Assembly (NCBI GenBank): GCA_028290385.1 | Contig: JAQGJZ010000452.1 | Coordinates: forward strand, 1 to 8,591 | Reading direction: 5' to 3' | Length of the DNA: 8,591 nucleotides | Source: Enterovirga sp. | GTDB lineage: Bacteria; Pseudomonadota; Alphaproteobacteria; Rhizobiales; Beijerinckiaceae | Shown here: positions 4,161 to 7,447 of the stretch, piece after piece | Layout of the letters: each line of letters starts with the position of its first letter | How positions within the stretch are numbered: the first letter of the stretch is position 1 | The notes under the pieces: model-generated | What the model was told of the DNA's origin: nothing | The model's input: the letters and a program-made list of their open reading frames with translations, nothing else | Databases searched by the model: none | Made by a program: the position numbers and the translations under genes

Positions 4161-4777
4161 AGGGCGATCAGGTCCAGCTCGCGCAGCAGGGCGAGCGTCG
4201 GGAGCAGCGGAAGGCCCAGGATGGTGGAATGTTCGCCGTCGACGGCGCTGAAGAGGTGAATGCCCAAACCCTCGATCTCGTAGCCTCCGGCGGAGCGCGT
4301 CGCGGCCTCGCCGGCCGAGGCGACATAATGGGCGATCGCGGCGTCATCGAGATCACGCACGGACAGACGTGCGGTCGCCACCCGGACGGCGTGGAGCCGC
4401 CCCCCTGTCGCAACCGCGACGGCGCTGTGGAGGAAGTGGCTTCGGCCGGCGAGCCGGGCGATCTGCCGCCGGGCATTCTCCGGCGACCCGGGCTTGCCGA
4501 GGCTTTCGCCGTCGAGATCGAGCACCTGATCCGCCCCGATGACGATTCGCTCGGGATGGAGGCGCGCGACTGCACTCGCCTTCTCGGCCGCGAGCCGGGC
4601 CGCGAGTTCGGCAGGCCGGATCCCAGGGCCGAGCGAAGCCTCGACAGCCCGCTCGTCGACGTCCGGGGGCACGGTCTCGACCGGAAACCCCGCGGCCTCC
4701 AGCAGCGTGCGCCGCACGGGGCTCGTCGAGGCCAGCAGCAGCGGTGCGGTGCCGCGCCAGATGGCCGACATGGTCAC
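4157..4777 (-). CDS. maf: Maf-family nucleotide pyrophosphatase, YceF-like
   Basis: Maf proteins hydrolyse non-canonical or modified nucleoside triphosphates to monophosphates. The product has 206 residues. The signature LASTSPVRR (15-23), the E-K pair at 65-66, [11 protein letters not shown] with Asp83 (81-91), GKP (94-96) and NARRQ (101-105) are all present. The forms GADQ and STSPxRR resemble E. coli YceF (7-methyl-GTP pyrophosphatase) more than YhdE (dTTP/UTP, usually GADT). Substrate preference is therefore an inference, and a septum-inhibition role, historically given to Maf, should not be assumed. The GTG at 4777 overlaps the ppsR stop as GTGA; an alternative ATG lies at 4771 in the same frame and would remove two residues. 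The stop overlaps the aroE start. Confidence 0.93.
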
Positions 4778-5604
4778 ACCGCGATGAACCTGACCGCGTG
4801 GTCGCGATACAGGTCGAGGATCGCGGCCGCCGTTTCCTCGATGGAGCGGCGCGTTACGTCGATCACCGGCCAGTTGTGGCGGGCGCAGAGCCGGCGCGAG
4901 AAGGCGATCTCCTCGGCCACGAGTTCGCGGTCGACATAGGACGTGTCCTCGTCCGCCTTCAGGCTGAGGAGGCGGTTCTGCCGGATTTGGACGATCCGCT
5001 CGGGTGAGGCGACCAGCCCGACAACCAATGTCCGCCTCACGGCCTCCAAGGCCGGCGGGACCGGCATGTTCGGCACAAGCGGGATGTTGGCGGTCTTCAG
5101 CCCGCGATTGGCGAGATAGATCGAGGTCGGGGTCTTTGACGTCCGGCTCACCCCAACGAGCACCACATCGGCCTCGTCGAGATCGGTCGGGAGTTGCCCG
5201 TCGTCATGCATCAGCGTGAAGTTCATCGCATCGATGCGCTTGAAGTACTCGGCGTTGAGCATGTGCTGCGCGCCGGGCCGGGCCGTGGAGGCGGCCCCGA
5301 TATAGCTCTCGAGCAAGGCGTGCACGGGCGCGAGCACTGAGAGGTGCGGGCAGCCGGTGGCCCGGCACGCCTCCTCCAGCCGCCCGGCCAGATCGCGATC
5401 CACCAGCGTATAGAGCACGAGCCCGGGCGCCGCATCGATCTCCGCGATCACGCGGTCGAGCTGCTTCGACGAACGCACGAGCGGGTAGACGTGCTCGATC
5501 GCCGAAACGCCCTCGTATTGGGCCGTCGCCGCGCGGGCCACCGCGATGAGTGTTTCGCCCGTCGAGTCGGAGACCAGATGGAGATGGAAGTAGCTGCGGC
5601 CCAC
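4774..5604 (-). CDS. ppsR: PEP synthase/PPDK regulatory protein: bifunctional kinase-pyrophosphorylase (PpsR/DUF299)
   Basis: Proteins of this family inactivate PEP synthase or pyruvate phosphate dikinase by ADP-dependent threonine phosphorylation and reactivate them by Pi-dependent dephosphorylation. From GTG 5604 the product has 276 residues, matching E. coli PpsR (277). It begins [18 protein letters not shown], a family hallmark. The P-loop GVSRTSKT is at 151-158, preceded by the conserved LMHDDG (131-136). The frame is open to 5703, but the extra 33 residues do not belong to the family and would place the DnaA box inside the gene, so I rejected that start. The ribosome-binding site is weak. 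Whether the target is PpsA or PpdK cannot be told from this window. It heads the leftward unit and is divergent from hemE across the candidate oriC, like the orthologue next to Caulobacter oriC. Confidence 0.95.
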
Positions 5605-5635
5605 GGGGACAATCCGCGATCGGGGAGTCGACAAG

Positions 5636-5644
5636 TGTGGATAA
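5636..5644 (-). promoter_or_regulatory. Perfect-consensus DnaA box
   Basis: The plus strand reads TGTGGATAA, the exact complement of the consensus DnaA box TTATCCACA. It is the only full-consensus copy I found in the window and lies 32 bp upstream of the ppsR start. A relaxed candidate, TTGTCCAGA, lies at 5765-5773 (two mismatches), and TGTGGACGG at 5873-5881 matches only in one half. Confidence 0.7.
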
Positions 5645-5786
5645 GGGACCCCGCGGCGGCGGTCCAGGTAACGGCCGACCCAAACCGTCCCAGCCGGGCT
5701 CAACAGGCTCGGCTGCGGGGCTCCTGGAACCAGGGAATCGGTGATGGCGCGCCGCGACCCGCCCTTGTCCAGAGGGGACTCGATGG

Positions 5787-5802
5787 TTAACCCCTTGGTA
5801 AC
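5787..5802 (+). promoter_or_regulatory. CtrA-like box 1
   Basis: TTAA, 7 nt, GTAAC fits the CtrA consensus TTAA-N7-TTAAC with one mismatch. It lies inside the candidate oriC, where CtrA represses initiation in Caulobacter. Its left half is part of the perfect palindrome GGTTAACC (5785-5792). It is spaced 17 bp from the second box. Confidence 0.5.
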
Positions 5803-5803
5803 C

Positions 5804-5819
5804 TTTAGCTCCCGTTAAC
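5804..5819 (+). promoter_or_regulatory. CtrA-like box 2
   Basis: TTTA, 7 nt, TTAAC fits the CtrA consensus with one mismatch. It starts exactly 17 bp after box 1, in the same orientation, leaving one base between them. The TTAA in this box and the one in box 1 are the only TTAA tetramers I found in the whole window. Confidence 0.5.
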
Positions 5820-5903
5820 GGTCCGGCCCGCGCGCCGGGGGCCGATCCGTGCTAGCCAGGCCGTGGGCAACCTGTGGACGGCCTTGCGGGACCGAATCCG
5901 ACC

Positions 5904-5953
5904 CATCAAGCAAGAGAAGCAAAGATTCAGATTCTAGATTCCTTTTTAGAAAG
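5904..5953. other. AT-rich tract, candidate DNA-unwinding element
   Basis: This 50-bp stretch is about 34% G+C by hand count, in a window of about two-thirds G+C. It holds three copies of AGATTC (5923, 5929, 5936) and ends in the small inverted repeat CCTTT-TTAG-AAAGG (5941-5954). Its place beside hemE fits an unwinding element; it may also contain the hemE promoter, although I could not identify a convincing -35/-10 pair. Confidence 0.5.
5923..5941 (+). repeat. Three near-tandem AGATTC repeats, each a GANTC methylation site
   Basis: AGATTC occurs at 5923-5928, 5929-5934 and 5936-5941; the first two are adjacent and one T separates the second from the third. Each contains GATTC, a CcrM (GANTC) target. 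A further site, GAATC, lies at 5894-5898. Confidence 0.75.
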
Positions 5954-5966
5954 GCCGAACGGGTCC

Positions 5967-7022
5967 GTGGCATCTGACAAACCGATCTGCCGGGTCCTCG
6001 ACGGCGAGCCCGTATGGCCCCCACCCATCTGGATGATGCGGCAAGCCGGCCGCTATCTGCCGGAGTACCGGGAGCTGCGTGCCAAGGCCGGCTCGTTCCT
6101 CGACCTCTGCTACAATCCCGAGCTCGCGACCGAGGTCACGCTGCAGCCGATCCGCCGGTTCGGGTTCGATGCCGCGATCATGTTCTCGGACATCCTGGTC
6201 GTGCCGCACGCGCTCGGCTGCGACGTGAGCTTCCAGGAGGGCGAAGGCCCGCGGCTGTCCCAGACCACCTCGATGGAGGCGCTCGATCGCCTGGCGCCCA
6301 CGATCCCGCTGGAGCGGCTCGCTCCGGTGTTCGAGGTCCTGCAACGGGTGAGGGAAGGGCTACCGGCCGAGACGGCGCTTCTCGGCTTCTGCGGCGCTCC
6401 CTGGACGGTGGCGAGCTACATGATCGCCGGGAAGGGCACGCCCGACCAGGCGCCCGCCCGCACCCTCGCCTATCGCGATCCGGCGTTCATGGCGGCGCTG
6501 ATCGACCGACTGGTCGAGGCCTCGACCACCTACCTGATCCGGCAGATCGATTCCGGTGCCGACGCGGTCCAGATCTTCGAGTCGTTCGGGGCCGCGCTGC
6601 CGCCGGCCCTGTTCGGTCCGCTGTCGCTCGATCCGATCTCGCGCATCGTCGCCGGCGTGAAGGCCGCGAGGCCCCAGGCACGGGTGATCGTGTTCGTGCG
6701 CGGCTCGGGCGGGCACATGACCCAGCTCGGCTGGAACTGCCCGGGCGACGCGCTCGGACTCGACTGGACGGTCGACCTCGCCCATGTGCTGCCGACCTTC
6801 CCCGAGCATCTGCCGACGCAGGGCAACCTTGATCCGCTCGCCCTGATCGCGGGCGGCGATGCGCTCGAGCGCGGGATCGACGCGGTGCTGGATGCGGTCG
6901 AAGGGCGGCCGCACATCTTCAACCTCGGCCACGGCATTCTGCCGGAAACGCCGATCGTCCATGTCGAGCACATGCTGCGACGGGTGAGGGGAGCCGCCTC
7001 GCGCTACGGGGCGAAGTCCTGA
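5967..7022 (+). CDS. hemE: Uroporphyrinogen decarboxylase
   Basis: HemE converts uroporphyrinogen III to coproporphyrinogen III in haem synthesis, in the cytosol. From GTG 5967 it has 351 residues, the usual length. The first family signature PPIWMMRQAGRYLPEYR (19-35) holds the substrate-binding arginines, the second is GFCGAPWTVASYMI (140-153), Asp75 lies in MFSDILVVPHALG, and QGNLDP (285-290) and His322 in NLGHGILP complete the set. The frame is open upstream to a GTG at 5874, but that extension runs through the AT-rich tract and does not resemble the family, so I preferred 5967. The ribosome-binding site is poor (AAAGG 12 nt upstream). The stop shares its last base with the hemJ start (TGATG), so the two are probably translated together. 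The gene borders oriC in many alphaproteobacteria. Confidence 0.96.
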   Translation: MASDKPICRVLDGEPVWPPPIWMMRQAGRYLPEYRELRAKAGSFLDLCYNPELATEVTLQPIRRFGFDAAIMFSDILVVPHALGCDVSFQEGEGPRLSQTTSMEALDRLAPTIPLERLAPVFEVLQRVREGLPAETALLGFCGAPWTVASYMIAGKGTPDQAPARTLAYRDPAFMAALIDRLVEASTTYLIRQIDSGADAVQIFESFGAALPPALFGPLSLDPISRIVAGVKAARPQARVIVFVRGSGGHMTQLGWNCPGDALGLDWTVDLAHVLPTFPEHLPTQGNLDPLALIAGGDALERGIDAVLDAVEGRPHIFNLGHGILPETPIVHVEHMLRRVRGAASRYGAKS

Positions 7023-7447
7023 TGCTCTACCCGGCGCTGAAGAGCCTGCACATCATCTCGCTCGTCGCCTGGATGGCCGGGATGTTCTATCTGCCGCGGC
7101 TCTTCGTTTATCACGCCGAGGCGCCCAAGGGCTCGCCGCAATCGGAAACCTTCAAGGTCATGGAGCGGCGGCTCCTGAAGGCGATCATGACCCCTGCCAT
7201 GATCGCGACCTGGGTCTTCGGGCTGTGGCTCGCCTGGGAGATGGGCGCCTTTGCGCAGGGGTGGCTGCACGCCAAGCTCGCGGTCGTGCTCGTCCTGTCC
7301 GGGTTGCACGGCCTGCTGGCGAAGCGCCTGCGCGAGTTCGCGGAGGACCGGAACACGCATTCAGGCCGCTACTACCGGATCGTCAACGAGGTGCCGACGT
7401 TGTGCCTCGTCGCAATCGTCGTCCTGGTCGTCTTCAAGCCGTTCTGA
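7022..7447 (+). CDS. hemJ: Protoporphyrinogen oxidase HemJ (UPF0093 membrane protein)
   Basis: HemJ is an integral inner-membrane protein that oxidises protoporphyrinogen IX to protoporphyrin IX, the penultimate haem step, in bacteria lacking HemG or HemY. It has 141 residues with four likely membrane helices (about 5-27, 57-75, 83-101, 125-139). Conserved features are His10 in SLHIISLVAWMAGMFYLPRL (8-27), VYH (29-31), the HAKLAVVLVLSGLHG segment with Lys85 (83-97) and RIVNEVPT (119-126) before the last helix. It overlaps the hemE stop by one base, and this pairing supports the haem role over a generic membrane protein. The next gene is rho, 182 bp away with its own promoter. Its presence suggests, without proving, that HemG and HemY are absent from the genome. 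Confidence 0.92.
   Translation: MLYPALKSLHIISLVAWMAGMFYLPRLFVYHAEAPKGSPQSETFKVMERRLLKAIMTPAMIATWVFGLWLAWEMGAFAQGWLHAKLAVVLVLSGLHGLLAKRLREFAEDRNTHSGRYYRIVNEVPTLCLVAIVVLVVFKPF

Follow-up and report, generated by a model that had tools for sequence, protein, structure and literature searches.

Does chromosome replication in an Enterovirga-like bacterium start in the short gap between ppsR and hemE? The chromosomal origin of Sinorhizobium meliloti lies by hemE, and a sequence-only reading of the present locus had proposed a candidate origin between these two genes, with control by DnaA, CtrA and CcrM retained outside Caulobacter. The window analysed here, the whole 8,591-bp stretch, is contig C177 of an Enterovirga-like MAG (3.14 Mb, 552 contigs, 78% complete), whose nearest named relative is an Enterovirga MAG with a hemE identity of 78%. 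A further genome of the same genus, G008 (4.7 Mb, 10 contigs, 100% complete), carries a hemE gene 88% identical to that of the window. On the evidence assembled below, the gap is likely the chromosomal replication origin, operating under a proposed DnaA/CtrA/CcrM scheme, with a probability of roughly 0.87; the fit comes from its ppsR/COG1806 and hemE flanks, its DnaA box, its low-stability tract, the nearby parS, a layout kept in relatives and the lack of a DnaA box on the dnaA side in three relatives.

The ppsR-hemE gap and its motifs

The window reads, in order, Tim44-like, secB, DnaQ-like exonuclease, coaE, aroE, maf, ppsR, the gap, hemE, hemJ and rho, with the GTG starts of ppsR (5604, minus strand) and hemE (5967) directly bordering the 362-bp gap, which has an overall G+C content of 64% (Table 1). 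The earlier statement that the genes on both sides point away from the gap holds for six of the seven typed genes on the left and for all three on the right (hemE, hemJ and rho), but not for the SecB gene (1225-1905), which is oriented towards the gap. The likeness drawn to the Caulobacter origin in its flanking gene pair is borne out, with hemE and COG1806 on either side of Cori (PMC1914354).

Table 1. Features of the ppsR-hemE gap and its right and left flanks, in window coordinates
Feature	Position	Strand	Basis or remark
ppsR (COG1806/DUF299, kinase-pyrophosphorylase), left flank	4774..5604	-	PF03618, E 4.6e-93; NF003742 above cut-off; transcribed away from gap
Predicted chromosomal replication origin (ppsR-hemE intergenic)	5605..5966		Motifs; layout kept in relatives
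GANTC (GAGTC) within conserved GGAGTCGA block adjoining DnaA box	5625..5629		Motif scan, alignment
Exact DnaA box TTATCCACA	5636..5644	-	Motif scan; one of 2 in entire MAG
CTGGACC (GGTCCAG on plus strand), conserved	5661..5667	-	25 bp from DnaA box start; 46/46 regions with both motifs; alignment
TCAACA block, conserved	5700..5705	+	Alignment; recurrence in relatives
GANTC (GAATC)	5735..5739		Motif scan
GANTC (GACTC)	5777..5781		Motif scan
CtrA-like box TTAACCCCTTGGTAA, 1 mismatch	5787..5801		Motif scan; aligns with CtrA boxes of relatives
CtrA-like box TTTAGCTCCCGTTAA, 1 mismatch	5804..5818		Motif scan
Degenerate DnaA-like unit CGTGGGCAA, putative	5862..5870	-	Inferred from relatives; 11 bp before next unit
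Weak DnaA-like unit TGTGGACGG, predicted	5873..5881	-	Comparison with relatives
TTGCGG	5884..5889		11 bp after TGTGGA unit; spacing kept in relatives
GANTC (GAATC)	5894..5898		Motif scan
Predicted DNA unwinding element, least stable 50 bp of window	5903..5953		Nearest-neighbour energies
Three GATTC (GANTC) sites inside predicted unwinding element	5924..5941		Motif scan
hemE, right flank	5967..7022	+	TIGR01464 above cut-off; transcribed away from gap
hemJ	7022..7447	+	TIGR00701 above cut-off
rho, truncated by contig end	7630..8591	+	Rho_RNA_bind and Rho_N

The motifs attributed to the gap from its sequence were all recovered. The perfect DnaA box was confirmed as an exact TTATCCACA, which is the only DnaA box match within one mismatch in the window. 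All seven GANTC sites are present as well (at 5625, 5735, 5777, 5894, 5924, 5930 and 5937), forming a cluster with a Poisson p of ~6e-6 against the density in the remainder of the window, which over its entire length contains 22 such sites, below the shuffle mean of 47.7. Both CtrA-like boxes were found, but each departs by one mismatch from TTAA-N7-TTAA; two such near-matches in the window were reached by 1 of 200 window shuffles. When the region itself was shuffled (n = 2000), at least seven GANTC sites occurred in none of the shuffles, an exact DnaA box in 0.05%, and at least two or at least one CtrA-like sites in 0.05% and 2.75%, respectively. The AT-rich tract proved to be the least stable DNA of the window, whose least stable 30- to 80-bp stretches all fall between 5894 and 5983. 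The unit matching CGTGGGCAA reads TGTGGA in most Microvirga.

Within 5605-5966, we found neither the IHF consensus (WATCAN5WTR), nor the Caulobacter G-boxes (TGATCCACA) and W-boxes (TCCCCA), nor a trio-like run; in relatives, the IHF consensus occurred in 7 of 95 regions, against 5.4 in shuffles. The absence of these four elements, together with a single strong DnaA box and the imperfect CtrA boxes, counts against the origin reading. Rfam gave no match in 5300-6300 up to an E value of 1, and a sigma-70 promoter scan of 5500-6050 with an E. coli-type consensus found no promoter.

Rarity of the motifs across genomes

The exact box TTATCCACA occurs twice in the 3.14-Mb MAG and twice in the 4.7-Mb G008, against 13 and 17 copies of its reversed control, and in both genomes one of the two copies lies inside the ppsR-hemE gap. 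On the 648-kb hemE contig of G008, where the uniqueness of the cluster was checked (the remaining G008 contigs and the MAG being scanned for exact DnaA boxes), the gap contains the sole exact DnaA box and is the sole 362-bp window with at least six GANTC sites. One of the three exact DnaA boxes of the complete genome G041 lies in the ppsR-hemE gap; none of the six in the complete family member G017 lies at hemE, where the gap (L099) has a one-mismatch box. The second exact copy in the MAG (L236:3828-3836, G000:C260) and in G008 (L237:3925-3933, G008:C3) is found just upstream of an ORF starting MRRP(D/E)DQHVRAMR, with GANTC and CTGGACAGA words nearby; the copy of this ORF in the MAG had no Pfam match.

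Conservation and fixed spacing in relatives

We examined 112 sequences for ppsR beside hemE and kept 103, of which 95 were distinct after duplicates were removed; omitted were six without a ppsR match beside hemE (in two of them the contig ends there), two copies of the window (L001 and L082) and L102, with a gap of more than 800 bp. The 95 gaps measure 200-800 bp, 35 being counted as Microvirga and 60 as others (including the Microvirga-labelled MAG L042), and 20 regions chosen from them were aligned. TGTGGATA occurs in 51 of the 95 gaps, an exact CtrA box in 73 and at least two TGTGGA in 76, with fewer than one expected in each case; a CtrA box within one mismatch is present in 83, and CtrA boxes stand at the aligned position in most of the 20 aligned regions. 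At least two TCCACA were found in only 4 of the 95, and over all regions together TGTGGA outnumbers TCCACA by 215 to 16, indicating that the DnaA-like sites are mostly oriented one way. The TCAACA block recurs in 78 of the 95 regions, against 6.7 expected, with its reverse complement in 8.

The spacings between these motifs are close to invariant. The DnaA box lies 25 bp from GGTCCAG in all 46 regions with both motifs, 13 of which are outside the Microvirga set, GGTCCAG being missing in 5 of the 51 TGTGGATA regions. TGTGGA and TTGCGG are 11 bp apart in 43 of the 43 pairs found within 9-15 bp, and adjacent TGTGGA units are 11 bp apart in 41 of the 49 pairs separated by at most 30 bp. A search of 298 family genomes for the DnaA box-GGTCCAG unit, blind to hemE, returned 46 matches in 45 genomes, 40 of them reading TGTGGATA; of 30 matches inspected, 28 lay between ppsR and hemE and 2 elsewhere. 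The reversed control also gave ~31 scattered matches, so that a single unit match carries little weight unless its location is considered. The search found no unit in 253 of the 298 genomes; it is therefore a marker for one section of the family, with 10 of 43 genera represented.

Beyond the family, we compared ~800 bases upstream of hemE in each of 10 genomes chosen from the 65 class genomes with a hemE match (our own included). Eight had ppsR beside hemE, a count that would miss a more distant ppsR given the ~800 bases covered, and seven had a DnaA box within one mismatch; CtrA boxes with no more than one mismatch, like the 25-bp unit, were missing from all 10. The placement of ppsR beside hemE is thus old, and on this small sample the CtrA boxes and fixed spacings look local to the lineage.

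Position on the chromosome

A GC-skew minimum at this locus had been suggested as a check of the origin. We assessed skew in the relatives G017, G008 and G041, the MAG itself being split into 552 contigs, and the expected switch appeared at hemE in G017, but not in G008, with a displaced minimum, or in G041, with no clear one. G017 was sampled in 20 stretches of 20 kb: each of the seven that start at or before 690 kb has negative skew, and each of the nine between 710 kb and 2.5 Mb has positive skew, with a local minimum at ~706 kb and hemE at 703.8 kb; this switch (703-707 kb) is 168 kb from dnaA. On the G008 contig, cumulative skew reaches its minimum at 351.6 kb, which is 144 kb away from the locus; a strand-corrected third-position skew, no better than the raw skew, agrees with this value. 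A strongly negative GC skew (-0.0585) at ~240-260 kb of the same contig (G008:C5) helps to move its minimum off hemE. In G041 (60 stretches of 20 kb), in which GC skew has no clear minimum, a fit to GGGNAGGG polarity gave an origin position of 3.84 Mb (support 3.76-4.00 Mb), which is 170 kb away from hemE. With the arms set by hemE, GGGNAGGG counts split 100 to 71 in one arm and 41 to 81 in the other. The terminus was fitted at 1.52 Mb, and the point opposite, at ~3.62 Mb, is 52 kb from hemE, too coarse a placement to separate hemE from dnaA.

The skew of G008 and G041 speaks against a simple origin reading, an objection weakened by failures of skew elsewhere: reports describe no usable GC skew in Methylobacterium extorquens (PMC2680597), insufficient GC skew in several alphaproteobacteria (PMC1914354) and an unclear skew in Hyphomonas neptunium (PMC6650430), whose origin was afterwards mapped next to hemE by marker frequency.

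Partitioning sites were found close to the locus. In five of the eight genomes searched (G008, G017, G041, G042 and G043), parS-like sites lie 5-13 kb from hemE, the contig concerned in G042 and G043 being recognised from the coordinates of the unit matches; G016 has a perfect parS 89 kb from hemE and a two-mismatch site 14 kb away. A ParB gene is located 8-14 kb from hemE in G008, G017 and G041, with parS and ParB 5-8 kb from the locus in G008. In the MAG, a parS-like site that departs by one mismatch stands at 593 of contig C164 (L176), next to mnmE. This contig maps alongside the end of the window on C5 of G008, an exact end overlap with the window not being seen.

The dnaA gene is on another contig than hemE in G008, and lies 168 kb off in G017 and 73 kb off in G041. 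The 700 bp upstream of dnaA in these three relatives contain 4 to 6 GANTC sites, to which G041 adds a single CtrA-like site. They hold nothing within one mismatch of a DnaA box, and a dnaA-side origin was set aside on that ground. The GANTC and CtrA-like sites by dnaA count against the ppsR-hemE gap, as do the distant perfect parS of G016, the 253 family genomes without the unit, the six sequences with no ppsR match beside hemE and the DnaA and GcrA genes not found in the incomplete MAG.

Could the gap be merely a divergent ppsR/hemE promoter under DnaA, CtrA and CcrM, with replication starting elsewhere, for example near dnaA? The DnaA box-GGTCCAG unit may be read as having a promoter-like 17-bp spacing (TGGACC-N17-TATCCA, minus strand), CtrA boxes and GANTC also serve as promoter elements, GANTC occurs upstream of dnaA too, and the skew minima of G008 and G041 are displaced from hemE. 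We nevertheless regard this explanation as improbable, given that nothing within one mismatch of a DnaA box precedes dnaA within 700 bp in G008, G017 or G041, and given the parS and ParB near hemE in most relatives searched, and a skew switch in G017 that coincides with hemE, far from dnaA. Moreover, a promoter needs neither an oriented array nor the least stable tract of the window, and the E. coli-type sigma-70 scan returned no promoter. Still fainter is the chance that the origin moved within the genus and left the gap as an inherited, inactive former origin. The displaced skew minimum on the same G008 contig would agree with such a move, against which stand the rare motifs and rigid spacing retained in both the window and G008, the parS and ParB that are still 5-8 kb away in G008, and the weakness of skew in the group, exemplified by M. 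extorquens (PMC2680597).

Comparison with known origins

As a probable origin, the ppsR-hemE gap belongs to a known kind of site, that of Caulobacter. Like Cori of Caulobacter crescentus (PMC1914354, PMC8959179, PMC4285127), it has hemE/COG1806 flanks, DnaA boxes, an A+T-richer tract and, here with one mismatch each, TTAA-N7-TTAA CtrA-like boxes. Cori is credited with two strong G-boxes, five weak W-boxes, five CtrA sites and an IHF site. By contrast, the window has one exact E. coli-type DnaA box, TGTGGA-type units in one orientation and two imperfect CtrA boxes, without a G-box, W-box or IHF consensus. In the discussion of hemE/COG1806-type origins in PMC1914354, not all elements need occur in every genome. 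The Rickettsia hemE-side origins treated in the same source have hemE and COG1806 flanks as well, with DnaA, CtrA and IHF sites sought likewise, but these genomes are A+T-rich with IHF sites reported (PMC1914354), whereas the gap of the window has none. In H. neptunium, the origin is by hemE, with parAB ~7 kb off and two parS sites; skew, dnaA and DnaA sites gave no clear origin, and marker frequency placed it (PMC6650430), whereas that of the window is placed by sequence alone. What appears to be new is the geometry of the lineage. No description of the 25-bp and 11-bp spacings was found in titles and abstracts of the hemE-origin papers searched, and we do not claim priority.

Proposed mechanism and a possible shared blueprint

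In the scheme that we propose for the likely origin, DnaA would bind the strong box beside ppsR as an anchor. By way of a predicted array of weak sites, spaced in steps of 11 bp and facing one way, DnaA would open the low-stability tract beside hemE. Phosphorylated CtrA would bind the two middle boxes and keep the origin closed, as a gate. Origins that have just been replicated would be marked by CcrM through methylation of their GANTC cluster, which could also influence transcription from the hemE and ppsR promoters. The 25-bp unit, read on the minus strand, has a sigma-70-type promoter spacing, with the conserved CTGGACC as a possible -35 element of ppsR, suggesting that DnaA might act as a ppsR repressor as well when bound to the strong box, a suggestion to which the E. 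coli-type consensus scan gives no support.

We also consider it possible, rather than probable, that there is an origin blueprint peculiar to Enterovirga, Microvirga, Salinarimonas and Methylobacterium. A single strong DnaA box would lie inside the ppsR promoter, box and CTGGACC being held in a fixed 25-bp register, and the DnaA-like sites would all face the same way. In Enterovirga, Microvirga and Salinarimonas, an 11-bp-phased TGTGGA-TTGCGG array would lead to a melting tract that is studded with GANTC and covers the hemE promoter, a CtrA gate lying in between. If this blueprint is true, origin firing would switch ppsR and hemE simultaneously, and the motif pair would locate oriC where the GC skew of the family often cannot. 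For want of a visible GC skew, the numbering of M. extorquens chromosomes was by convention started at dnaA (PMC2680597); a mark in the sequence that points to the origin is therefore of use in this group.

Control by CtrA, DnaA and CcrM

Control of the gap by CtrA, DnaA and CcrM is less secure than the location of the origin. The MAG encodes CtrA (NF045991, 425 bits against a cut-off of 350) and a methylase with N6_N4_Mtase and RAMA domains. Among NCBIfam models, CcrM fits this methylase best, although the 600 bits scored fall short of that model's cut-off of 830; we infer control by CtrA and CcrM. A DnaA gene was not found in this incomplete MAG (78%), nor was GcrA, which is present in G008.

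The gap may instead be an origin that CtrA does not gate, its two imperfect boxes being relics or serving hemE transcription. The mismatch in each box, the reported failure of CtrA to bind the origin in Brucella abortus (PMC2877005) and the absence, upstream of hemE in all 10 distant class members, of any CtrA box within one mismatch would fit such an origin. We judge it unlikely, though a serious contender, in view of the CtrA boxes that are exact in 73 and within one mismatch in 83 of the 95 gaps and aligned in most of the 20, the adjacency of the two near-boxes in the window and the CtrA gene of the MAG. With an old element (ppsR by hemE in 8 of 10) set against local ones (CtrA boxes and spacings in 0 of 10), where CtrA gained its putative gating role becomes directly testable.

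In G008, a prophage-like replication module (L242:9235-18831; G008:C8, ~109-119 kb) encodes a clamp-like protein, a helicase, a DNA methyltransferase and a primase/helicase. The same module contains three consecutive small ORFs resembling pared-down host cell-cycle regulators: one is limited to domain IV of DnaA, another to a DNA-binding domain of the CtrA type, and a third is GcrA-like.
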